Part shown: positions 6,564 to 59,894 of the stretch, piece by piece
Numbering within the stretch: the first letter of the stretch is position 1
How the letters are laid out: every line of letters starts with the position of its first letter
Assembly: GCF_907164905.1 (NCBI RefSeq)
Contig: NZ_CAJRAF010000002.1
Location: 3,224,001-3,288,000, forward strand
Origin: Dyadobacter sp. CECT 9275
GTDB lineage: Bacteria; Bacteroidota; Bacteroidia; Cytophagales; Spirosomataceae
DNA: 64,000 nucleotides
Reading direction: 5' to 3'
Program-made: the position numbers and the translations under genes
The notes under the pieces: generated by a model
Databases searched by the model: none
What the model saw: the letters and a program-made list of their open reading frames with translations, nothing else
Told to the model about the DNA's origin: nothing

Positions 6564-8711
6564 ATGCGCCGCTTCCCACTGTTTTTGATATTCATTGCCT
6601 GTATAAAAGGCCACCTGGTTTCCGGCCAGTCGGCAGGGAAGGAGACGCTGGATCTTACTCTTTTTAAGATTTCCTGGTCGTCGTCACACGTTGATTCCTG
6701 GCAGTATACGCTTGCGAACGGCGAACGGCTCCGGCTTCGTTTACCCGTTTTTGAAATAAATGGGAAGGAAACGCCCGTTATCCTGCAATACCTGCGAGCG
6801 GCTGGTGCCGTGCAAGCCTTACCCAACGGCGTGAAGGAATACCTTTATGAAGGGCCTTTTGAAGCGAATGCCGGTTTACGCTTTCAGATGAAAATCCGGG
6901 CAGCGGCGGACAATCCCATCGTCCGCTTCAGCTACTCGTTAAAAGCCGGAAACGCCATCTTATCCCAAAAAACAGGAAAGAATCAGCTCACCTATCTGTC
7001 TGCGTCTTTGCAGGATTTTTCAAAAGTGAAGGAAGTACGGCTTGCCGTTTTTAATGAAATGATCCATTCCTGTAACCTTTCGGAAGTACCGGTTACCAGG
7101 GCTGATTTTGAGAATGGCGGATCTGCTGCCGGGCCCGTTTTAGTTGCCGCCAACGGGAAATCATGCTTTTTACTGGCTTATGAACATGACTCCATGTATC
7201 CGAACCGGTTCCTGGAATACCGGTTTGGGGAAGACAGTACTGCCAGCCTTACGGCCGTCAAGGGTAACTATTATGAAGGACAACAGGCCGATGGTTATTC
7301 CACGATATGGCTGGAAGCTGGCGGAGTTGCTGGTGATGAAGAGAAGCTGGCTGCTGATTATCGTCGGTTCATGGCACAATACATTTCTCAAAATATGGAG
7401 AGCCGCAAACCCTACATTTATTACAATACCTGGGGGCGTCAGGAGAGGGACAAATGGGCGGGTGGCCAGTATCTTTCCAACATGAATCTGGAATACACGT
7501 TGAAGGAAATAGACCGCGCCAGCGACATGGGTATAGAGGTATATGTAATTGATGCAGGCTGGTTTGATAAGACAGGCGACTGGGGTATACATCCGAAGAA
7601 TTTCCCAGATGGTTTTCGTCAGATCCGAAGAAAAGCAGAGGGTTATGGCATGAAGCTGGGTGTATGGATGGACCCGGAAAAAGCTGCTGTGTCAAGCCGG
7701 GCTTTGCAGCAAAACAAAAAGTACCTGAAGACCTCCAACGGCAAACACGGACAGCCTTCGCCCGTTTGGGAGACGGAAGAAAGCGTGGATATGTGCCCGG
7801 TGAGTCCCTACTGGGAATATTACGCGGCCGAATTGATCCGTCTCTATAAAGAAACGGGTATCCATTATTTTTATTTGGATGGAGTAGGCCAAACAGGCTG
7901 CGACGATCCCGGTCATTTCCACGGTACATCTTCCAATACACGGGAAGAGCGGCAGCAATCGTATGGTTTTCTGATACCGGTTTTTTTGGGTAAAATCATA
8001 GAGAAAGTAAGTGCTGCCTGTCCTGCAGTTATTTTCGATTTCGATGTTACCGAGGCCGGGAGGATTGGTGCCGGTTTGCAGTTTCTGGCCTCGGGACGCT
8101 ACTTTATCCTGAACAATGGCCCCTATTACCATAATTTCGATCTTACCAAAAAGGGGAGCAGCCTTTTGCCCAACGGCAACCGGAATATCTTTGTGCAGCC
8201 GGGACCCGCCCGAACCTGGTTTATGCGTTCGGTACTGGACTATGACAAATGGATTCCTTCCAATTTGTTCCTGGCCAACTATCAGCCCGACGATCCCGGA
8301 AGTTCTCAGATCATTAACCTGGCTTCGCTGGTATTGGGGCAGAACTCGATTTGGGGAGATATCCTGAAAACATCTCCCGAAGGCGTAGGGCGATTTGCCA
8401 AAATACTGAGCAAATACAAAGAGGTCAGGGATGATATCGCGAAGGCAGATCCCGTACGGGTAGGAAGGCCTGGTGATACACCGGAGATTTACGAAAAAAT
8501 AAACCCTTTAACCGGGAAAGGGGTGGTTGTTATTTTTGCCAATGCAAAAGGGCAGTTTTCCTACATTACCAGAGGTAAGGTAAACCACCATTCCTGGACC
8601 AATGAAGGCGCGACTGTCAAAAAAGGAGCAAACGGCCATGCCCAGATTGATGTTACGTTTGAAGAAGCATCTGCAAAGATTATATTCTTTGGGGTGAACA
8701 ATGGCTCGTAA
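6564..8711 (+). CDS. GH36 alpha-galactosidase-like hydrolase, exported
   Basis: 715 residues from the ATG at 6564; a TTG two codons earlier is a less likely start. The signal peptide ends near 'LVSGQSA'. After an N-terminal beta-sandwich (to about 270), the catalytic barrel shows 'YVIDAGWF', 'GDWGIHPKNFPDGF', 'GMKLGVWMDPEKAA' and 'YFYLDGVGQTG', the standard GH36 order. Asp439 in 'YLDG' is the probable nucleophile. The usual Glu of the GH36 'W.EPE' motif reads Asp here. It follows the esterase on the same strand and ends 26 bases before a convergent gene. Alpha-galactosidase is the default reading; a related alpha-linked sugar is possible. Confidence 0.8.
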   Translation: MRRFPLFLIFIACIKGHLVSGQSAGKETLDLTLFKISWSSSHVDSWQYTLANGERLRLRLPVFEINGKETPVILQYLRAAGAVQALPNGVKEYLYEGPFEANAGLRFQMKIRAAADNPIVRFSYSLKAGNAILSQKTGKNQLTYLSASLQDFSKVKEVRLAVFNEMIHSCNLSEVPVTRADFENGGSAAGPVLVAANGKSCFLLAYEHDSMYPNRFLEYRFGEDSTASLTAVKGNYYEGQQADGYSTIWLEAGGVAGDEEKLAADYRRFMAQYISQNMESRKPYIYYNTWGRQERDKWAGGQYLSNMNLEYTLKEIDRASDMGIEVYVIDAGWFDKTGDWGIHPKNFPDGFRQIRRKAEGYGMKLGVWMDPEKAAVSSRALQQNKKYLKTSNGKHGQPSPVWETEESVDMCPVSPYWEYYAAELIRLYKETGIHYFYLDGVGQTGCDDPGHFHGTSSNTREERQQSYGFLIPVFLGKIIEKVSAACPAVIFDFDVTEAGRIGAGLQFLASGRYFILNNGPYYHNFDLTKKGSSLLPNGNRNIFVQPGPARTWFMRSVLDYDKWIPSNLFLANYQPDDPGSSQIINLASLVLGQNSIWGDILKTSPEGVGRFAKILSKYKEVRDDIAKADPVRVGRPGDTPEIYEKINPLTGKGVVVIFANAKGQFSYITRGKVNHHSWTNEGATVKKGANGHAQIDVTFEEASAKIIFFGVNNGS

Positions 8712-8737
8712 ACATCAGATTTAGATGGTAGATGTCC

Positions 8738-10681
8738 TTATTCATTCACCAGGAAATGAACAATTCTGCAGGCGTTACCGGTACCTTTTTCATTTTTATC
8801 CTGTAAAATTTCGACATGTAAAATATGCTTGCCGGAAGAGAGTTCATCTGCCAGCATCAGATACCAGGGAAGATGTAACTGGGTGCTCCACCGGGTAAAC
8901 AGATCCAGCGACTGCACTTTTTTCCCATCTATGGTATAGGCAATCTTTCCGGCGTCTGCCCCTGAAATGATTGCTATCCCAACGGCCCGGCCTTTAAATT
9001 CGAAGTCGAACGATGAACCCGGCGCTTCGCCTACCAGCATGGGTACTTCTACAAATCCAGCTCTGGTGGATGTTTTGTCCTTCGGTTTCCAGTTTGGATC
9101 TACGGCAAAACCTTTTAACTTTTTGGCTTCCGTAACAGGATGATACCGCGCCTTTTCATACGAAAATCTGTCAAGAGACGCAGGCAGCTTACCTGAGCCA
9201 TTATCAGCAGGGGTACGTTTCAGCAATTCCTTGATGGTCTGAAAATAAACTTCCTGCCCATATGGAGAAGGATGTAGATCCTTAAAATCATATTTCCAGG
9301 AAAACTCTCCGGCCGCGATACGGTCATGCACTTCTTTGGCCAGATTGATATAGGAAGCACCATAATGTTTGGCAACCCTCTGATGAACAGACACTTCAAC
9401 AGGTACCCTACCCGCATCATAATCTTCATTCTTGGCCGGTTCCGCAAATGCCATCAGTACCACATCCGCGTTTGGATTTTTGAAATGCATTTGCCTCAAA
9501 ATTCCCTCCAGCGCTTTTACCTGCGCCTTTTCGCTAAACCCATTTCCCCTATCGTTCACGGCAGCTTCTACAAACAGCAGGTCAGGAGTGCCTTTTGCAA
9601 GTACATCCCTTTCAAATCTGAAAGCATGGGGTGTACTTCCAAGCGAAGGAATACCGGCTGCAATGAAGGTAAACTCAGTATCTGGAAATTTCTCCCGCAG
9701 GTATTGAGCGGTTTTGGTGCGCCATCCCGGATTGTAGGTAATTGATCCGCCCAGAAAAGCAACTGTTCCCTTACGTTCATTTTTAAATTTGGCAAAAGCG
9801 CGGGAAAGACCTGCGTTAACTTCGATATAAGGTGTACGATCTACCGGCCTAAGGACAGGGACACTATTGTGATAAATGAAATTGGCGAGTAAATCCGGCC
9901 TTTCAATCGGAAAATGATGGCCATCCAGCTTTTGTTCTCCGCGGGTCATGGGATAAACACTGGCCGGTCCGCCCAGTTTAGTATAGTTTTGGATGAGTAT
10001 ATCCGAATTTTCCGAAGGCGGAACAATTTTATCGTTCAACCCGATCACGTGCAGAATGGGTACTTTAAATGCTGCAAGTCCTTCCAGATCTTTCAGGGGG
10101 ATATCTGTAAAATTACCGGCCTGCTCTTCGGTGAGTTTATACTGGCTGAGCCATGACGCCCAGTCCTTTTCAGACCCAGGCCCTTTGCCTTTTCCTCCTG
10201 GCCAGCTGCGGGGATCGCATACGGGCGCTTCCGCATAAATACAGCTTATCTTATCTGGATTTCGTTTGGCCCAGTTATATACATATAATCCGCCGCGGCT
10301 CACGCCCTCAAGCGCCACTTTGGGAGCAAACTGTTTTTGCTTTACCAGGAAGTCGTAAAAGTTATCCCAAACCTGCATAGCTTCGGGATTCCCGAACATA
10401 TCATTGGTGTTGACATATACCACATGAAACCCGCGTGACAGCAGTATACTGTCCATTTCGGTATGCCAGCCTGGAAAATGGGCACGCCATACCCATGGAT
10501 TACCCGGCACAGGACTTTTTGGTTTTACATACCAGGCTTCCCGGTTTTCAAATTTGAAGGATACCTTTTCAAAGCCTTTCCAGTTTGATGAAACAGTTGC
10601 CGGAACACTTCCGGACTGAGCAAAAACGGACAAGTAACCTATCAACTGGATGTAAATTGCAAGCGCTGTTATCTTTTTCAT
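8738..10681 (-). CDS. Two-headed esterase: alpha/beta-hydrolase domain + SGNH hydrolase domain, exported
   Basis: 647 residues from the ATG at 10681, chosen over an ATG nine codons upstream because it starts a canonical signal peptide ('MKKITALAI...VFAQ'). Residues about 35-300 form an alpha/beta-hydrolase with the nucleophile elbow 'GVSRGG' (Ser128), 'GLNDKIVPP' and 'DGHHFP'. Residues about 305-500 form an SGNH hydrolase with 'GGSITYNPGW' (Ser313), 'AAVNDRG' and 'DLHPSPYGQ'; Asp lies two, not three, residues before the His. A C-terminal beta-domain (about 530-647) resembles the accessory region of sialate-type esterases. Two esterase active sites in one chain suggest removal of two ester types or cooperative action on one glycan. 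The gene is convergent with the GH36 gene and probably belongs to the same utilisation locus. Confidence 0.75.
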   Translation of the reverse strand: MKKITALAIYIQLIGYLSVFAQSGSVPATVSSNWKGFEKVSFKFENREAWYVKPKSPVPGNPWVWRAHFPGWHTEMDSILLSRGFHVVYVNTNDMFGNPEAMQVWDNFYDFLVKQKQFAPKVALEGVSRGGLYVYNWAKRNPDKISCIYAEAPVCDPRSWPGGKGKGPGSEKDWASWLSQYKLTEEQAGNFTDIPLKDLEGLAAFKVPILHVIGLNDKIVPPSENSDILIQNYTKLGGPASVYPMTRGEQKLDGHHFPIERPDLLANFIYHNSVPVLRPVDRTPYIEVNAGLSRAFAKFKNERKGTVAFLGGSITYNPGWRTKTAQYLREKFPDTEFTFIAAGIPSLGSTPHAFRFERDVLAKGTPDLLFVEAAVNDRGNGFSEKAQVKALEGILRQMHFKNPNADVVLMAFAEPAKNEDYDAGRVPVEVSVHQRVAKHYGASYINLAKEVHDRIAAGEFSWKYDFKDLHPSPYGQEVYFQTIKELLKRTPADNGSGKLPASLDRFSYEKARYHPVTEAKKLKGFAVDPNWKPKDKTSTRAGFVEVPMLVGEAPGSSFDFEFKGRAVGIAIISGADAGKIAYTIDGKKVQSLDLFTRWSTQLHLPWYLMLADELSSGKHILHVEILQDKNEKGTGNACRIVHFLVNE

Positions 10682-51775: not shown

Positions 51776-51799
51776 TCGCCCCCTTCCTTCACGGCAGTA

Positions 51800-53485
51800 C
51801 TATTTTTTACAGTCGCTTACAATTTTTTTCAGGGTATCTGCAATCTGCCGCCCTGAAACGATATTTTCACATTCAATTTTTACCATGTTGACGTAATCCG
51901 AAGGTGTGTCTCCCTTGAAAGATTTGATCGTCTTTTCCTTATTACGGGTTGAGATATTTACAAATACACTGCTTCCTGCTATTACCATCTCAACCGAAGA
52001 TGCGTCCATTTCCGTTAAGCTCAGTTCATACCTCAGTGGCCCAGCATTTTTTCCGTCCGTGATGGTCCGTTTAAAAACGAGCTGGCACTTTCCCGCTTTT
52101 TCCAATACCTGTGCACCCGCTTTCACGACAATACGGGAGTTGGTCAGCCGCTCATTGATGAACTGGGTTTCCATACCTGGTTTGGGGGACACAGGTTTAA
52201 CAGACGCCCGGCAGTCGGTTATCACCCTTTTCACAATTTCGGGCAAGTAACGAATACTCTCAATATCGTCCGAAATGATATCAAATGAGGAAGTGTAACT
52301 TTGCTTTTCGCCATTCTTCCAGACCTCGATAAATTTTTGCTTGTCTCTGGTTTCAACACTCATTTCGAAGACTTTACCTGACACCTTAATTTTCGGTGAC
52401 GACTCGTTGATATCTCCCCAGGCAAACCGGTATTCGCTTACTTTCCCGTTTTCATTTACAGACAGTATGGCCTGGCACTCCGCAACAATAGACTGACCGA
52501 TTTCCGGTGTATTTTTAACGGCCGTTTTAATCTTTTTCAACCCGTCGGCCAGGGAGGAATACACCGGTTTCAATTCATCACTTACCGGGCCTGCCAGCGG
52601 CAGAAGTTTTTGCAGTATCAGCTTTCCTTCCCGCGCTCTTTCCACATCATCAAAATAAAAACGAACTGATTTTTCATTGCTCTGGACTTTGCCGTTCTTC
52701 ACGTATTTAATGTAACCCTGTTTCGAGCGCGTAGCAAGTTCCAGGTATATCCATTTACCGGAAACGCCCATTTCAACATTACGCTCGTCCATATCTGCCA
52801 GGTTGAAATCAAAAATCTCTTCTTCCACCTTACCCTTGTCACCCGGCTGCAGAATCAGTTTCACTCTCAGATTTTTAAAGCCTTCGGCATAAGTAATACC
52901 CTGCTTGTAACTTTCCCCCGCTGCATTCAGGCTTATTACATTGGCCTTGAGCCAGTCTGTCAGAAAACTGTACTTACTCACAATTTTCAGTTTGCTCTCC
53001 ATTGCCTTCTGCGCCAGCGGAACTGATTTCTGCAGGGCTGCGGTCAGCGCCTTCGCATTGTCTATCTGGTCAGCATATAATGTTATCTCGCTCACGTACT
53101 TCACCTGCTGCTCTCCTTCCTTTTCTTTGATGAACCCGTGTCCCTTGATGGCTTTCATCTTTACGAGCATCTCATCCTTTTTAGCCTCATATTTGATAGA
53201 AGCGGGATCAATGTCGGCCAGATTAAATTCGTAAAGCCGGGTAACGGTTTGTCCCTTTTTATCTGTTCCGGTTATTTCGTAAAATACCTGGTAAGGACGT
53301 AATCCATTGGCGCGTAACGATTGTTTCCATTCATTACCCGAAGTTTTTACTGTTTTTAACTGGGCCGAAACTTCTTTCAGCGTGCTAAGTAAATCGCTCT
53401 GTGCCCGGACAAGGGAGTGTGACAAAATGGTTACCAGCGTCCATAAAAAAGCAGCCCGAAAAAATTTAATACTATTCATCAACAT
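51800..53485 (-). CDS. Exported protein of four diverged internal repeats, function unknown
   Basis: 561 residues with a signal peptide ending 'LVRAQ'. I recognise no named domain. Four copies of a unit of about 130 residues can be seen from their cores: 'YEFNLADID' (85-93), 'FDFNLADMD' (225-233), 'YRFAWGDIN' (352-360) and 'YELSLTEMD' (486-494). Each core is followed at a constant distance by a beta-strand with a Lys-rich turn ('KGHGFIK', 'SKQGYIKYVKNG', 'DKQKFIEVWKNG', 'NKEKTIKSF') and then a helix ending near 'L..L..L'. It is the last gene of the operon at 51800-58383, one base from the vWD gene. A role in surface structure or binding is a guess from context. Confidence 0.8.
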   Translation of the reverse strand: MLMNSIKFFRAAFLWTLVTILSHSLVRAQSDLLSTLKEVSAQLKTVKTSGNEWKQSLRANGLRPYQVFYEITGTDKKGQTVTRLYEFNLADIDPASIKYEAKKDEMLVKMKAIKGHGFIKEKEGEQQVKYVSEITLYADQIDNAKALTAALQKSVPLAQKAMESKLKIVSKYSFLTDWLKANVISLNAAGESYKQGITYAEGFKNLRVKLILQPGDKGKVEEEIFDFNLADMDERNVEMGVSGKWIYLELATRSKQGYIKYVKNGKVQSNEKSVRFYFDDVERAREGKLILQKLLPLAGPVSDELKPVYSSLADGLKKIKTAVKNTPEIGQSIVAECQAILSVNENGKVSEYRFAWGDINESSPKIKVSGKVFEMSVETRDKQKFIEVWKNGEKQSYTSSFDIISDDIESIRYLPEIVKRVITDCRASVKPVSPKPGMETQFINERLTNSRIVVKAGAQVLEKAGKCQLVFKRTITDGKNAGPLRYELSLTEMDASSVEMVIAGSSVFVNISTRNKEKTIKSFKGDTPSDYVNMVKIECENIVSGRQIADTLKKIVSDCKK

Positions 53486-53486
53486 A

Positions 53487-56135
53487 TTACATCAAAGATT
53501 TCATTGTCCAACTGTGCACCAGTACATTCTCACCATATAAGCTCGGAAAAAGCATATTCCTGAAATATTGATTCTGGGTAAAATTTCCGGAAGCAGCCGG
53601 TGCCGAAGCTCCGTCCAAATATATTTTATAATTTCCACTAAAACCATTACCAGCACTGCTCCTGCTCACCACCACACGCAAACGGTGCCGTTGCCCGTCA
53701 AAAACATTCGCAATCATACTGCCGTTGTTGGTAACCTGTCCGCTGGCAACGGCAACACGTGTAGATGTTTTTTTCTGGGCGTTGCTGTCAAACGCTCCTG
53801 AAAGTAAGGTGGAATATACCGAAGGACTCGATGACGAGGCTGTCTCAATTCCACAGACCCCCAGTGAGTTGTCATTCGAGGTGGCCACTACCTTGGTGGC
53901 CGTAAATGTCATTTCGGTTTCAAACCCTTTGGAAAAATCCAGTTTGTCTTTCCAGTATATGGCTGGCAAAGCGCAGGACCCGGAACAGTTAAGGTCATTG
54001 AACCTCACCCCTTCCCCGCTCATTGTAGCTTCATAAAGTCCCACATCGTTACGGAAGTTGTTGAAATTCCCAATCGAAAAATTACGTAAAGCACCATTGT
54101 TCTCACTTACTTCGGCTCGTTGGGCATAGGAATTGTCGCCGGTAAGCGCAACATCCGTGATACAGTTCTGCAGCGTGACCGGGTCCGTCACTCCTTGCTG
54201 CGCACAAATATTGCGTGCCGCCGCCTCCTGTGCCGAGGTAAGATTAACCTGTGTTCTTGGAAAATTACGATCGGTATAGGATTCTGTACTTTTCCCTGAA
54301 TCGTAAATGAACAGCGACTCGGCCTGCTTGATGCGCCAGCTATCGGCGAAGACAGGATATAACGACTGATAGTTGTTCGCAACCGCCTGCCCCGTGCTGG
54401 TCACAAGGTCATTGGCGGCATTCCCGTCATAGTTTCCTATTATTCCTTTCACCTTACTTTTTCTGTTGATATTCAGGGTGATATAGTAGTCCAGATCCTG
54501 TGCAAACAACCGTACCTCCACCTGGTCGCCGTTGGCGTTACGGATGTAGAGCTGCGATCCATCCTTACGGATGGACCCGCCGTTGCTCAGTGCGTAATTT
54601 TCAAAATCAAAAGAAATGGCCTGCTTATTCACAGTGATACGGTTGGGCGGATACACGCAGACAACGTCGTTACCGGTATTCACGGCAACACCCGTATTAA
54701 AGGATACCTGGCCAGAGTTATTTTTGGATGCCACTTCCTGCTGCCGTGCCTGCACTTCAAACTTATCCGTTGTGGATTTCAGGGCCACAAACTCGCCCAC
54801 CGCCATAAAGCTATACCGCGCCCGATCCAGCGTAGTGATGTGAGGGTCGCCGGTACTGATGGAAGTTGGGACAGGCTCAGTGTTGTCGGGGACGGGGTCA
54901 GGTTCATCACCACATAACTCCGATAATAAAGCCCATGGATCAGATTTAGCTTTCCAGTCATAGGAAATGGTCGGTGTGGCCTCTATCAGATCCAGTAATT
55001 TCACATCTACAAAGGCTTTTAATTCTACCCCAAAATAATATATAACATTTAAACCCTTTTGTAAGGTACTGCATGCACCTTCGAACCCTCCAAAAAATTT
55101 CATCCCAACTCCAACAGAAAAGCCATATTCCTTTACTTCACAATCTACATCAAAGAACTGGTAAAAATAATCCTCCATTTTCCCTTCGATTGAGGCTTCG
55201 ACCTTGCCCTTAATTTCAAGACTAACCGGAGCTGGATCCGGTTGGGGGTTCTCTTCATTAATGTCCTGCCAGCATGAAGGTCCACCACATTTATTCCACT
55301 CTTTGCCCGTGGCTGAAGAATGATTAAGAGAAAAAATATTTCCTTCTACCTTGGCACTGCCGTCAAACTCCATTCCTGCATCCAACCTCACAACAGGTGT
55401 AATCATCACTGGTATACCAAAGACCAGAAAGACCTTTGTATTTAATTCCTTACATAACAAATTTTTCTCAAATTTGGCTTTTGCACTTCCTTTCAGAGAA
55501 GCAGATGCATTAAATTTTTTATCAATAGTATGTTTGACCTTGAATTTTTTCCAGTTGGAATCTTCAATAAAAATTTCAATTAAACCCTTGCCCTGGTATT
55601 CACCTGATACCGCAATTTTTCCTTCAACCGTTCCAGACGTAACTCCTCCTGCACCAGTAGTTGTAAGACTGAGTGGAAATTCTGCTGACAACGACTCCGT
55701 ACCAAAAGTAAATTCGAACGTTTTGTGGATCCTTTTGAATATTTTATTCAGCGGAGCGAATTTATACTCCATCCTTATATTACCTGCAACATCTATAATC
55801 CTGGTAATTTCCGCAGCAAAACCTCTTGGTGCCTTTTCTGAAATATATCCTAAAAGAATATCTCCTGTCCTGAGTGATGACATCTGAGCAGTGACTGAAA
55901 TGTGTCCGTTTCCTACTTGTGGATCGCTTTTAAACAACAAGTACGACGGTGTTAATTCAAGTAACTGGTTATTTTGATTGCTGTCCAGCACGTATACATT
56001 TTCATGTATGTCAACAATATTATCTCCGCCAGCCTGCTCGGCTGGTACTTCAACAATCCTTTTACAGGCCGTTGGCCAGAACACGGTTGCCGCAAAAACC
56101 ACCAGCGAAAGCGATATCCTTAAATATTTTTTCAT
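53487..56135 (-). CDS. von Willebrand factor type D domain protein, exported
   Basis: 882 residues. The N-terminus is a signal peptide, possibly a lipoprotein signal ('FWPTACKRI'), though Pro sits at an unusual lipobox position. Residues about 30-400 are beta-rich and not recognised. A vWD domain spans about 428-600: 'STGDPHITTLDRARYSFMAVGEF', 'FEVQARQQEV' and 'VKGIIGNYDGNAANDL' are diagnostic. The last 200 residues resemble a LamG/L-type lectin sandwich ('YEATMSGEGVRF', 'FDGQRHRLRVVV', 'FSGNYKIYLDG'). The DNA encoding the N-terminal part is far more AT-rich than that of the rest. It lies between the DUF2135 lipoprotein and the repeat protein on the same strand. Probably a surface adhesin or matrix protein. 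Confidence 0.83.
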   Translation of the reverse strand: MKKYLRISLSLVVFAATVFWPTACKRIVEVPAEQAGGDNIVDIHENVYVLDSNQNNQLLELTPSYLLFKSDPQVGNGHISVTAQMSSLRTGDILLGYISEKAPRGFAAEITRIIDVAGNIRMEYKFAPLNKIFKRIHKTFEFTFGTESLSAEFPLSLTTTGAGGVTSGTVEGKIAVSGEYQGKGLIEIFIEDSNWKKFKVKHTIDKKFNASASLKGSAKAKFEKNLLCKELNTKVFLVFGIPVMITPVVRLDAGMEFDGSAKVEGNIFSLNHSSATGKEWNKCGGPSCWQDINEENPQPDPAPVSLEIKGKVEASIEGKMEDYFYQFFDVDCEVKEYGFSVGVGMKFFGGFEGACSTLQKGLNVIYYFGVELKAFVDVKLLDLIEATPTISYDWKAKSDPWALLSELCGDEPDPVPDNTEPVPTSISTGDPHITTLDRARYSFMAVGEFVALKSTTDKFEVQARQQEVASKNNSGQVSFNTGVAVNTGNDVVCVYPPNRITVNKQAISFDFENYALSNGGSIRKDGSQLYIRNANGDQVEVRLFAQDLDYYITLNINRKSKVKGIIGNYDGNAANDLVTSTGQAVANNYQSLYPVFADSWRIKQAESLFIYDSGKSTESYTDRNFPRTQVNLTSAQEAAARNICAQQGVTDPVTLQNCITDVALTGDNSYAQRAEVSENNGALRNFSIGNFNNFRNDVGLYEATMSGEGVRFNDLNCSGSCALPAIYWKDKLDFSKGFETEMTFTATKVVATSNDNSLGVCGIETASSSSPSVYSTLLSGAFDSNAQKKTSTRVAVASGQVTNNGSMIANVFDGQRHRLRVVVSRSSAGNGFSGNYKIYLDGASAPAASGNFTQNQYFRNMLFPSLYGENVLVHSWTMKSLM

Positions 56136-56154
56136 GACCCTGAAACGCGCTATT

Positions 56155-57018
56155 TTAGAAACTGTACTGATCTCCGCGTTTTCTGATCGTCACCACGTCC
56201 TTCTGGTCGTCCTCACGTTCCAGTATCCCGTTGTAACTCCTGGATCCCGAGGCAGTATTAATCGTTATGAAATAGCGCGTCCGGGGTGTACCTCCATAGT
56301 AATGCACAAATACCTTGTATTCACCGTCCGGCGCATTTTCCCAAAAAATGTTTTCAGGACCGTAACCATCCGTGTCGTCCCTGTCCAGCTGCCCGCCGGT
56401 GACATTGGAGCGCTTATCTCCAAAATAAATTTCTTCACCGCCAGGCTCAATCACGTGAAGATCTATGTCGGTATTGTCGGTATCCCAAGCCAGATTAACC
56501 TGCAACGAACCGGTACCAAGCTTTTGAATATCCACGCATTGTGTAACAGGAGTACTCACCCGGTTCAGGTCGTCATAGACCCACACATTCACACAGAACC
56601 TTCCGCTCAGGGATGCCGCCGGAATACCGATCGGCAAAGTAAACTGGCCCGGATTGTTTGGGTCTGGCTGCACAACAAAATAGGAATCCGATCCCTCTAC
56701 CTGCACATAAAAGCCTTCAACCGTACTGCCCGAAGGAATATTAAAACCAAACGGAATAGCAACTGTACTACCATTGCTCGAAATGATTACGGTATTCGCC
56801 CCGGCGGTGATGCTGGGCCGAGTGCCCGTCTGGTTTGATGCAGGCGGTGCCCCCACGATACGCACCGTTCCATCTGGCAAAATGATGTACCGGCTGAAAG
56901 AATTGGGATCGGAAGGATCCACCACAATAGGATCAACTTCGATTTCTGTAGTTCGGGTGCAGCTCCCCATCAGGAGGAAAAAAACCGAAACGATAAGGAT
57001 GTAATATGATCGGAACAT
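56155..57018 (-). CDS. DUF2135-domain lipoprotein
   Basis: 287 residues with a lipobox 'FLLMGSCTR'. The N-terminal part (about 45-160) is a beta-domain with 'NTVIISSNGSTVAIPFGFN'. The C-terminal DUF2135 domain (about 170-280) shows 'VNLAWDTDNTDIDLHVIEPG', 'EEIYFGDKRS', 'GPENIFWENAPDGEYKVFVHYYG', a Ca-binding-like Asp cluster ('DRDDTDGYG'). It is the second gene of the four-gene surface operon, 24 bases after the OmpA gene and 19 before the vWD gene. It may assemble with them at the outer membrane; function is not known. Confidence 0.85.
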   Translation of the reverse strand: MFRSYYILIVSVFFLLMGSCTRTTEIEVDPIVVDPSDPNSFSRYIILPDGTVRIVGAPPASNQTGTRPSITAGANTVIISSNGSTVAIPFGFNIPSGSTVEGFYVQVEGSDSYFVVQPDPNNPGQFTLPIGIPAASLSGRFCVNVWVYDDLNRVSTPVTQCVDIQKLGTGSLQVNLAWDTDNTDIDLHVIEPGGEEIYFGDKRSNVTGGQLDRDDTDGYGPENIFWENAPDGEYKVFVHYYGGTPRTRYFITINTASGSRSYNGILEREDDQKDVVTIRKRGDQYSF

Positions 57019-57042
57019 TTTATTTCTTGGGTTTGAGTCCTT

Positions 57043-58383
57043 TTACTTAATTTCTTTTGATTTAAATCCGATCCCGATGCGTAATCCTGCGAAGTGCAGC
57101 GGATCGGTTATCTCACTAAAATCCTTATTGAGTATATAGTGATACTGCGCGGCCACGTCCAGGAAAACCGGGCCGAAATATTTCTCAAAACCTATGGCCG
57201 CACCCACCGCCGGAATAAATCCTTTGGTCGTGATCGTCTGCAGGCCATTGGGGTGCAACTCCGAAGTTTTCGTGGTACGTTTGGTTAGCTGCCCTCCTCC
57301 GAATGGGTTGAAATAAATATTCCGGATAGGATAGAGTTTCAACCCAACCTGAAGGGGAATCCGGGTTACTTTGTCTTCCGCAGTAAACTGTAGTATTTTT
57401 TCCGGCACCATGCTCACATATTTTCTTTCCACCTGCCATTGTGAAAATCCTGTCTGGAAAGTCACGCCTACCTTGCTGGTTAAAAAGTAACTCAGTTGAA
57501 TTCCTCCGCCAAAACCCTGCAGCATTCCAATACCCGTGTTGAGGTCCGACCAGTTTTTAGAAAGACTTTCAATCACATACAGTCCTTCTCCATAAACGGT
57601 TACTCCAAAAGCCTTTCTGGGCTTAGGCGCCGAAGGTGTGAAAGATAAATTTTGATCTCCTGTTGGATCATCGAATTTTTGCTTTATCTCTTCCCTTACA
57701 ATGGGCTGGAATACCACACTGGTACCATCAGCAAACCTGATCTGCGAAACCTCTGTCGTTTTTACTTCCAGCAGGGGCGAGGACTCATTGAGTTTGTAGA
57801 GAATCTTTTTGTTGGCATCATCTCTGTATATGAACAGGACCTCCTCCTTTTGTCCGTTCATGAAAAGAATTTCATTTTTCTGCGTCTGGTCAAGCCCGAC
57901 AAATTCCATTTCCACACGTCTGTTCTGGCTTTTTCCAAACTCCGTTTTGTTGGTGGCCACCGGTCTCAGGGAGCCATAGCCCTGAAAACTCACCCGGCTG
58001 GCTCTGATACGACCGATTGTCACCAAATAATCTCTTACCGATTTAGCCCGGTTTAAAGATAATTTCCTGTTGGCTTCGGCATTTCCGACATTATCCGTAT
58101 GCCCCGTTATTTCAAAAACGATAGAGGGCAACTGATTCAAAACGGAAGCAATCGTATCCAGATATACCTTACTGACCGGCTTGATCGCCGCCGAATTGGT
58201 CTCAAAATTGATGTTCTTCATCTTGATCCTGACACCGGCCATGGATGGTTTTTTACGGAGTGAGTCCAGAATTGTCTCCAGCAGGCCTTGCTGTGGTGCC
58301 GCTGTGGAGGTCCTCAATTTCTGCCCAGCTACTGAACCTGAGAGGATGCAGAGAAAAAAAAGAAATACATAAACTTTTTTCAT
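57043..58383 (-). CDS. OmpA-family protein with N-terminal OmpA domain and C-terminal beta-barrel
   Basis: 446 residues with a signal peptide ending 'GSVAGQ'. The OmpA peptidoglycan-binding domain is near the N-terminus (about 55-165): 'INFETNSAAIKPVSKVYLDTIA', 'FEITGHTDNVGNAEANRKLSLNRAKSV' and 'RVSFQGYGSLRPVATN' with 'GKSQNRRVEMEF'. A linker with a repeated 'EVLFIYRDDANKK'-type segment follows, then an outer-membrane barrel (about 255-446: 'FGVTVYGEGLYVIESL', 'GGGIQLSYFLTSKVGVTFQ', 'GLRIGIGF'). This is the reverse of the usual barrel-then-OmpA order. It is the first gene of the operon and could tie the other products to the outer membrane and wall. Confidence 0.87.
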   Translation of the reverse strand: MKKVYVFLFFLCILSGSVAGQKLRTSTAAPQQGLLETILDSLRKKPSMAGVRIKMKNINFETNSAAIKPVSKVYLDTIASVLNQLPSIVFEITGHTDNVGNAEANRKLSLNRAKSVRDYLVTIGRIRASRVSFQGYGSLRPVATNKTEFGKSQNRRVEMEFVGLDQTQKNEILFMNGQKEEVLFIYRDDANKKILYKLNESSPLLEVKTTEVSQIRFADGTSVVFQPIVREEIKQKFDDPTGDQNLSFTPSAPKPRKAFGVTVYGEGLYVIESLSKNWSDLNTGIGMLQGFGGGIQLSYFLTSKVGVTFQTGFSQWQVERKYVSMVPEKILQFTAEDKVTRIPLQVGLKLYPIRNIYFNPFGGGQLTKRTTKTSELHPNGLQTITTKGFIPAVGAAIGFEKYFGPVFLDVAAQYHYILNKDFSEITDPLHFAGLRIGIGFKSKEIK

Positions 58384-59059
58384 AACCTATTAATTTTTGA
58401 TAATGCCTGTTTTATAAATATGAAGGATGATTTTCCCATGGTGCTGCCAGTATGCTGTTCACTTCAGAAAACGACTTCTTTAAAGCAATCCACCGTTTTT
58501 CTCCGTTTCAGATAAGCACACCTCCCTTCTTCCCCTATTAATAGCTGGAAGGAGCTGCAGGTAACCGCACTTTAAAGAAATTATTTACACCTTTTCGGAG
58601 AATCTGAAACCAATGGCAGCTCAACAGACTCATTTACAATTATTTGATTTACCTTATTAAATGAAGCAGATAGTGGTTTCGAAGGAATTGCCGGAGCAAT
58701 GGCGGAGGCAGTTTTCATACGTAGGCCGATAGCAGGTTATTAGAATTACGAATTTGTAACCAGAACCCGTCTGATTCAACCTACATCTCACGAACCAAGC
58801 ATTTTACCTCATGAAAGGAATAATTTTTCCAATGAAACAGTCCTTGCCGTACTTCATGACCACTTCCAGGATTTGAGACAAGCAGGCTCAATCAAACCCG
58901 CGGGTGGCTTTTGCACACTTCTCCAAAAAAGAGCAGCACAGAACGAAGTTTAGGGTGAGACCTTTGGCCAGCCAATGGTATACAGTATGGGATTATTTCC
59001 CGTGGTGGTGAATTGATACCAACACCCGGGAGGCAATACCACGCATTTAACCAACGGTT
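58384..59059. other. Long intergenic region between the surface operon and the LytTR regulator
   Basis: This 676-base gap separates the divergent operon (minus) and response regulator (plus). No open frame above about 42 codons, and none with a recognisable protein, was found. It holds two copies of the palindrome CTTTAAAG (58478-58485 and 58570-58577) and an inverted 9-mer GTTTCAGAT (58505-58513) / ATCTGAAAC (58602-58610). These could be regulatory sites. It is the only long gene-free stretch of this size in the window. Confidence 0.55.
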
Positions 59060-59806
59060 ATGGACCCGCTGAAAATATTAATTGTAGAGGACGATTTACA
59101 AACTGCCCATGAAATACAAGCCTGCGCAGAGGAAGCAGGACACCAGGTAACAGGTATAGCAAGAGACGCAAAAGGTGCCATGAAACTGGTAAAGAACGAT
59201 CCGCCTGATATTGCAGTAATTGACATCAAACTAGGTAAACTTCCGGAAGCTGGTATTGCTATTGCCCAGGAAATCCTGTCGCAGCACTGGATACCTTTTA
59301 TTTATCTTTCCTCTTACTCCGACCCGGCTACGGTCGAAAAAGCCCGAAAAACGTTTCCCTCTGCTTATTTACTGAAACCCTTCCGGCCGCAGGAACTGCT
59401 CATCCAAATCAGCGTGGCCCATACTAATTTTTTCAACCAGAGCAGAAACATCAATCATCAGACTATGAACCAGAATAACTTTTATCTTCCGTTTGATAAC
59501 GGACATGAACAGATTACCACAAGGGATATTCTCTATCTGGAGGCAAAAGGCGCGTGCGTGAATGTGTATCTGATGAACCGCATAGGTCCCAAAATGATCG
59601 GTATGACACTCGGAAATCTGTCGCAATATTTTACAACACCTAATTTTTTCCGCCTTTCCCGTTCGTTGTTCATCAATATGGATCACCGCAAGCGCATTGA
59701 ACGAACCCATATCTATCTGGGTGATGAAAAAGTTGTTGTAGTAGAGATTTCGGAAGCTAACCGAAAGGAGCTTTTAAAAAAACTTAAAGTAGTGCGCACC
59801 AAATAA
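59060..59806 (+). CDS. LytTR-family response regulator
   Basis: 248 residues. The receiver domain (1-120) has the acidic pair in 'ILIVEDD', the phospho-acceptor Asp55 in 'IAVIDIKLGK', 'FIYLSSYSD' (Ser/Thr position) and Lys106 in 'LLKPFRPQ'. The C-terminal LytTR DNA-binding domain (about 145-245) has 'ILYLEAKGACVNVYL', 'LSQYFTTPNFFRLSRSLFINMDH'-type sequence and 'VEISEANRKELLKKL'. It should bind direct repeats upstream of target promoters. No histidine kinase is adjacent. The operon at 51800-58383 is divergent from it and is a candidate target. Confidence 0.9.
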   Translation: MDPLKILIVEDDLQTAHEIQACAEEAGHQVTGIARDAKGAMKLVKNDPPDIAVIDIKLGKLPEAGIAIAQEILSQHWIPFIYLSSYSDPATVEKARKTFPSAYLLKPFRPQELLIQISVAHTNFFNQSRNINHQTMNQNNFYLPFDNGHEQITTRDILYLEAKGACVNVYLMNRIGPKMIGMTLGNLSQYFTTPNFFRLSRSLFINMDHRKRIERTHIYLGDEKVVVVEISEANRKELLKKLKVVRTK

Positions 59807-59894
59807 TTGCTGACAGCAACAATATCCTTACTGAGAATTACCATTTATTCAGGATCAAGCCGTTTCTTTGCACAGGAAAAGATCAGTAAAAAAC

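Follow-up and report, generated by a model that had tools for sequence, protein, structure and literature searches.

Barrel proteins that go with a surface lipoprotein have been described before. In passages of PMC12578637, Bt1926, a predicted 8-stranded barrel, is named as a putative secretion partner of the S-layer lipoprotein Bt1927 or its anchor in the outer membrane, and the way in which Bacteroidota surface lipoproteins reach the surface and assemble with barrels is described as unresolved. TonB-dependent transporter/lipoprotein complexes likewise combine a barrel with a surface lipoprotein, and the lipoprotein export signal (LES) of Bacteroidota is, according to passages of PMC5080379, a short signal just after the +1 cysteine. 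Here we describe an operon of Dyadobacter sp. CECT 9275, a relative of Runella and Spirosoma, that lies in a stretch of 64,000 nucleotides (contig NZ_CAJRAF010000002.1, positions 3,224,001 to 3,288,000 of the forward strand; the whole stretch is called the window) and encodes a predicted outer membrane barrel protein, two lipoproteins that both carry a short tag from the lipobox cysteine onward, and a secreted repeat protein. We propose, with a probability of about 0.5, that this operon belongs to a modular system for display at the outer membrane, in which the barrel is constant and the tagged surface lipoproteins are interchangeable.

The new element is the tag linked to the barrel. In contrast to Bt1926/Bt1927, one barrel family is accompanied here by several unrelated lipoproteins with a common tag, in a comparison that leaves the start of Bt1927 aside. 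Unlike in the TonB-dependent pairs, Pfam placed the barrel in no TonB-dependent receptor family, and none of the four window proteins matched a SusD or TonB-dependent receptor family there. The locus also differs from SusCD, since the SusD starts of the window genome lack the tag: 0 of the 20 starts read (from 30 loci fetched of 78 matches) passed the profile described below, and a link of SusD starts to the tag, some of them being alike by eye, was dropped. Whereas the LES centres on K-(D/E)2, the tag has a basic residue followed by alternating hydrophobic and acidic residues and is tied to a partner gene. A literature search, with preprints and most subscription papers outside its scope, gave no description of the barrel family or the tag that was recognised by title or start of abstract.

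The four-gene operon

The features of the operon are given below with their positions in the window.

57043-58383, minus strand: OMP, with a signal peptide, an OmpA-like domain (amino acids 60-155) and a predicted C-terminal barrel (about amino acids 236-446); Pfam and profile comparison
56155-57018, minus strand: DUF, a DUF2135-type lipoprotein of 287 amino acids; Pfam match below cut-off and profiles built here
56929-56961, minus strand: post-cysteine tag of DUF, CTRTTEIEVDP; leave-family-out score 6.9
53487-56135, minus strand: VWD, a lipoprotein of 882 amino acids with a VWD domain (amino acids 428-582) between N- and C-terminal parts without assignment; Pfam
56037-56066, minus strand: post-cysteine tag of VWD, CKRIVEVPAE; leave-family-out score 13.2
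51800-53485, minus strand: RPT, a secreted four-repeat protein of 561 amino acids with a signal peptide and no lipobox; open reading frame (ORF) call and repeat comparison

An earlier note on this DNA had reported four exported same-strand genes, and the ORF positions confirmed the order OMP, DUF, VWD and RPT with intergenic gaps of 24, 19 and 1 nt. Export signals were read from the sequence of all four, namely lipoboxes in DUF and VWD and ordinary signal peptides in OMP and RPT. The OmpA domain assigned to OMP was clear (E 4e-21, 75.6 bits against a Pfam cut-off of 27.2), while the C-terminal barrel matched OMP_b-brl at E 4.6e-6 with 27.3 bits, slightly below the cut-off of 28.7; the barrel profile A2 also hit a solved structure, chain 9wso_C, annotated 'Outer membrane protein lom' (E 0.0031). 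DUF has the expected lipobox, and its DUF2135 match is below the Pfam threshold (17.9 bits against 22). The VWD protein had been taken for a vWD/lectin-like protein; its VWD domain stands (E 5e-16), its C-terminus matched neither a Pfam nor an NCBIfam family, and it is a lipoprotein as well. Among solved structures in the PDB, it is closest to IgGFc-binding protein, mucins and von Willebrand factor. The four repeats of RPT are real and mutually homologous, with probabilities of 99.65-99.88% in the six pairwise profile-profile comparisons; RPT matched zero Pfam families, and its best match to a solved structure, at E 0.034, is not convincing. In NCBIfam, OMP was the sole protein of the four with matches, all below cut-off among the best 25 of 41 models. 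No C-terminal sorting domain of the type IX secretion system was found in the four proteins with Pfam, or with NCBIfam in three proteins and the best 25 of 41 models of OMP. The four genes may be co-transcribed. Promoter-like sites numbered 19 in the sequence against 13.6 (standard deviation 3.5) in shuffles, and terminator-like sites 8 against 8.9 (standard deviation 3.1).

Lipoproteins encoded behind the barrel gene

Genomes were sampled from the host family, with 200 per query and the window genome included in each count. Matches to RPT turned up in 25 of the 200 genomes, to VWD in 36, to all or part of DUF in 16, and to the region of OMP C-terminal to its OmpA domain in 29. The barrel profile matched in 32 of 222 family genomes, with a single barrel in the window genome, and gave three weak matches outside the family among 390 order-level genomes. 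Protein searches with RPT returned the same 8 proteins with the single sequence or a profile, and a contig search of genomes with the VWD protein sequence gave no match.

We compared 80 neighbourhoods and the window, that is 81 loci, mostly of 20 kb, with 1271 ORFs. They were picked by hits and are a non-random set; related loci recur among those scored, so that the samples are not independent, identical proteins were counted once, L068 and L162 share about 5 kb, and L077 was left out since gene calling had missed its RPT ORF. A barrel was present in 34 loci, 13 of these barrels carrying an OmpA domain. VWD accompanied the barrel in 7 of the 34 loci and RPT in five (window, L066, L068, L079 and L085), and the barrel was missing from 24 of the 31 VWD loci and from 20 of the 25 RPT loci. 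All four genes in the same order occurred in two loci, the window and L066 of Runella sp. MFBS21. In L079 the RPT gene of Spirosoma telluris (8366-9865 and a downstream piece) seems broken, with one stop within the match and a separate piece.

A lipoprotein gene, called by a lipobox rule, lay directly 3' on the same strand for 26 of the 34 barrel genes. This recurrence bears out the earlier note where it set outer surface proteins next to a barrel/OmpA protein, and the barrel may serve as their anchor. The direct followers comprise VWA, VWD and DUF2135-type proteins, a family of about 240 amino acids (no Pfam match in the one member checked), and a 468-amino-acid protein in L181 that matches a DUF2135-bearing protein. 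From position +26 onward, follower bodies gave no phmmer match at E 1e-3 among the VWA, VWD, ~240-amino-acid and DUF2135-bearing groups; judged by their sequences, the followers are at least four families without detectable mutual similarity. The 172-amino-acid follower in L171 also matched the VWA profile, and the tests below were re-run with L171 merged or dropped. A lipoprotein with a similar start was seen elsewhere in seven further barrel loci: as a direct follower missed by the lipobox rule in L177, as the second gene in L178, and 4-6 genes off in the same cluster in L160, L161, L166, L170 and L174.

A tag after the lipobox cysteine

The followers share a consensus of roughly C-x-[RK]-x-[VI]-[DE]-[VI], as in CRREVEVPLP (VWA), CKQVYEVDV (VWD) and CTIKREVIVP (~240 amino acids). 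We scored lipoproteins with a six-column profile, leaving the family being scored out of the training set, and took a score of at least 2 as a pass. Among 28 partners (the 26 direct followers and the VWD proteins of the window and L066), 27 passed, compared with 7 of 107 other lipoproteins (area under the curve, AUC, 0.966). At the stricter scores of 3, 4 and 5, the partners passing were 24, 21 and 19 of 28 and the other lipoproteins 7, 6 and 4 of 107. The other lipoproteins that passed were 6 of 45 in barrel loci, all within 6 genes of the barrel, and 1 of 62 in barrel-free loci (L101). Under other family definitions, the DUF2135-bearing rows as one family gave 28/28 against 8/107 (AUC 0.969), their merger with VWA 27/28 against 9/107 (AUC 0.968), and dropping L171 27/27 against 9/107 (AUC 0.973). 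As a sequence pattern in the examined loci, the tag is well supported.

The same families were compared with and without a barrel. Fifteen VWD lipoproteins without a barrel neighbour have starts like CKQKDSDPAATS and a maximum score of 1.4. In a tree, the partnered VWD rows formed one clade; the tree holds 4 of the 7 partnered rows, since a length filter removed 7 of 31 rows, including the partnered L092, L096 and L098. The L066 tag was misread there. Among DUF2135-type proteins with a called lipobox, 5 of 5 passed where the flank holds a barrel, against 1 of 9 where it does not. The profile had been trained with these five positives, and 4 of the 5 passed when left out (L173, 1.2). Six DUF2135-type loci had no called lipobox and were left out; two of them, L118 and L121, are barrel clusters with a similar start by eye. 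The second DUF2135 protein of the window genome (L123) is untagged. A ~240-amino-acid protein of L176 that is not the barrel's follower scored 0.1, and a similar protein in L164 scored 1.6 when left out and passed with the full profile.

Co-variation of tag and barrel

For pairs of loci whose lipoproteins belong to different families, we correlated tag score and barrel identity by Spearman's rank method, using 4000 permutations. Tags were more alike behind more similar barrels (rho 0.396, 338 pairs, p<=0.0002; 29 loci, i.e. the 26 followers, L177, L263 and L265). When L160, L161, L166, L170, L174, L178 and L264 were added (36 loci, 535 pairs), rho was 0.310. Thinning the barrels to below 60, 50 and 45% identity left 21, 19 and 16 loci, with rho of 0.417, 0.376 and 0.307 and p of <=0.0003, 0.0003 and 0.0033, respectively. 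Merged families gave 0.400 and 0.372 (p<=0.0005), and dropping L171 gave 0.381.

Control stretches of the same proteins behaved differently; a control on the signal-peptide n-region, whose sequences are too short, was excluded. For the 26 followers (254 pairs), rho was 0.399 for the tag against 0.118 for the signal peptide (p 0.08), 0.096 for residues +13 to +23 (p 0.13), -0.076 for +24 to +34 and 0.013 for the C-terminus. The tag thus seems to be kept by selection, since neither the signal peptide nor the residues after the tag track the barrel significantly. One example is the DUF2135-type protein of L176, whose TIRREYVVP resembles the ~240-amino-acid proteins behind related barrels (L068 and L175), unlike the window DUF.

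A possible docking signal and its alternatives

In the display system that we propose, the barrel would be the constant part, which in the window carries an OmpA domain for putative peptidoglycan binding. Unrelated lipoproteins encoded behind it would present the tag right after the lipidated cysteine; the cognate barrel would read the tag, hold the lipoprotein at the cell surface and perhaps help to expose it. In the window, one barrel would thus serve two tagged lipoproteins, the DUF2135-type and the VWD protein, with the soluble four-repeat protein encoded last. The likeliest purpose would be extracellular binding or adhesion. As a docking signal the tag is unproven. We tentatively suggest, with somewhat less confidence than in the display system as a whole, that each barrel recognises a particular dialect of a short post-cysteine address, in which case a tag swap alone might make unrelated lipoproteins (VWA, VWD, DUF2135-type and others) exchangeable at one barrel. 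Equally tentative, from the loci compared here, is the suggestion that such an exchangeable docking code may be used in free-standing operons, beside caspase-/CHAT-type proteins and inside clusters like the type VI secretion system of subtype iii (T6SSiii). If the proposal is true, a sequence address for one barrel family makes the question of lipoprotein surface delivery testable in a small two-gene system, and the tag offers a modular means of protein display.

Several observations weigh against the docking proposal. Three family barrel loci (L263, L264 and L265) were obtained after the profile had been built. The direct followers in L263 (1.3) and L265 (-0.7) both fail, though they keep part of the tag pattern by eye, and the lipoprotein of L264, which passes at 7.6, sits four genes upstream of its barrel; we set our confidence in docking lower because both later-fetched direct followers fail. 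The direct follower in L177 scores 1.9, and L167, which is cut by a contig end, has a barrel without a tagged lipoprotein. Weak barrel relatives outside the family have no clear tag (-6.8; a score of 4.3 belongs to a distant gene on the opposite strand). Conversely, the DUF2135-type protein of L125 passes (8.4) with no barrel in the flank, and, when the lipobox rule is relaxed and the full profile is used, so does 1 of 20 barrel-free VWD rows (L186, 3.4). The VWD contrast counts as one event, because the partnered rows form a single clade. Moreover, the permutations ignore phylogeny, and tag and barrel could co-vary simply because their genes are linked.

The tag might instead be a local form of a general lipoprotein export signal, read by a common flippase without any binding to the neighbouring barrel. 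The published signal is also located just after the cysteine, and, in passages of PMC5080379, the export signal of Capnocytophaga canimorsus MucG is KKEVEEE, which the tag partly resembles, with the five-residue KKEVE working poorly. Published signals, however, centre on K-(D/E)2 or S-D-D-D-D. A pair of adjoining acidic residues within +2 to +8 is absent from both window tags, a comparison with the published consensus, which may not be that of the host family; such a pair occurs in 1 of 28 partners against 13 of 52 lipoproteins far from barrels. This contrast is modest, as only 2 of 15 barrel-free VWD proteins have the pair. Since the tag is also rare away from barrels and tracks barrel similarity, we consider a general export signal rather unlikely.

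Gene-body replacement, in which new domains are pasted behind a conserved N-terminus beside the barrel, would leave the tag as a functionless relic and would account for unrelated bodies with a common start at one genomic position. Against this, the signal peptide and downstream residues that flank the tag do not track the barrel significantly, which makes a relic improbable. We hold it to be just as improbable that the operon encodes a dedicated four-protein apparatus for adhesion or gliding, as the earlier note had proposed. The Runella locus, where all four genes recur in this order, and the mucins and an IgG-binding protein among the relatives of VWD, would fit such an apparatus. Yet the full set occurs in only 2 of 81 loci, and VWD and RPT mostly stand apart from the barrel, being absent from most barrel loci, an outcome that the earlier note itself had named as counting against its idea. 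Nothing was found that points to gliding.

Insertion with a LytTR regulator

The operon lies in an inserted block of about 8 kb that also holds a divergent LytTR regulator, which the earlier note had left out.

51776-59830, no strand: inserted block flanked by anmK and an FAD oxidase gene, its right edge being approximate; congener comparison
59060-59806, plus strand: LytTR-type response regulator, divergent, 676 bp upstream of the operon and within the same insertion; Pfam and locus comparison

Among 29 congeners for which the locus was returned, anmK and the FAD oxidase gene are at most 1.5 kb apart in 25; in the other four, the junction holds unrelated genes in three, and the contig end is reached first in one. 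The junction may thus receive different inserts across the genus. The right edge was placed at about 59830, where the sequence before the oxidase gene resembles, by eye, that of some congeners. RPT had no match in any other sampled genome of the genus of the window. From this absence and the anmK-oxidase adjacency in congeners, regulator and operon probably arrived together. Base composition as a sign of foreign origin was rejected (G+C 0.454 in the operon and 0.460 in the window, no signal).

The LytTR protein may control the operon. Of the 34 barrel loci, 7 have a LytTR regulator no more than 4 genes away, as do 12 of the 24 VWD-only loci and none of the 20 RPT-only loci (VWD-only against RPT-only, Fisher 1.3e-4). 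These counts point to a link with VWD rather than with the barrel, and a link to the barrel was dropped. VWD lipoprotein genes are often close to LytTR regulators, for example in L095, L103 and L184-L192.

Other genes in barrel loci

Company was counted in the 34 barrel loci against the 47 others, which had been picked by RPT, VWD or DUF hits, with profiles grown here from Pfam-identified seeds (for the caspase/CHAT types, only three seeds were examined with Pfam). None of the following was present in the 47 others: VWA in 14 of 34 barrel loci (L156 and L171 counted via a short DUF2135 protein), a TPR protein of about 955 amino acids in 12, CsgG-type proteins in 4, caspase-type (C14) peptidases in 4 (L068, L164, L172 and L176) and CHAT-type proteins in 7 (L068, L091, L092, L160, L162, L172 and L175). 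The caspase/CHAT-type proteins have signal peptides in L068 and L172, by eye.

Genes of a type VI secretion system were noticed in two barrel loci only. In Fibrisoma limi (L156/L197), gp25-, TssF- and TssG-like genes (the TssG match being below the Pfam cut-off) precede the barrel and tagged lipoproteins, which recalls the T6SSiii membrane complex TssNQOPR. In S. telluris (L079/L196), gp25 was matched near the barrel, and the remaining likeness was seen by eye. By eye, both clusters also have ClpV-, TssB/C- and Hcp-like genes, and that of F. limi VgrG- and PAAR-like genes too. In contrast, the window genome had no match to VipB (the search detects it in an E. coli control and was not tried in relatives) or to gp25 (the search detects it in G044 and G197), and membership of the window operon in such a system was dropped. 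According to passages of PMC10781749, TssR of T6SSiii is a lipoprotein and contains a vWA-like domain; by analogy, the VWA lipoprotein of S. telluris is a candidate for a TssR-like role.

An exported set recurs in L160, L161, L164, L168, L170, L174, L264, L266 and L268, grouped partly by eye: a barrel, a protein of about 380-460 amino acids, often one of about 250-290 amino acids, a TPR protein of about 950 amino acids and a nearby lipoprotein. Look-alikes of this set are also seen outside the family.

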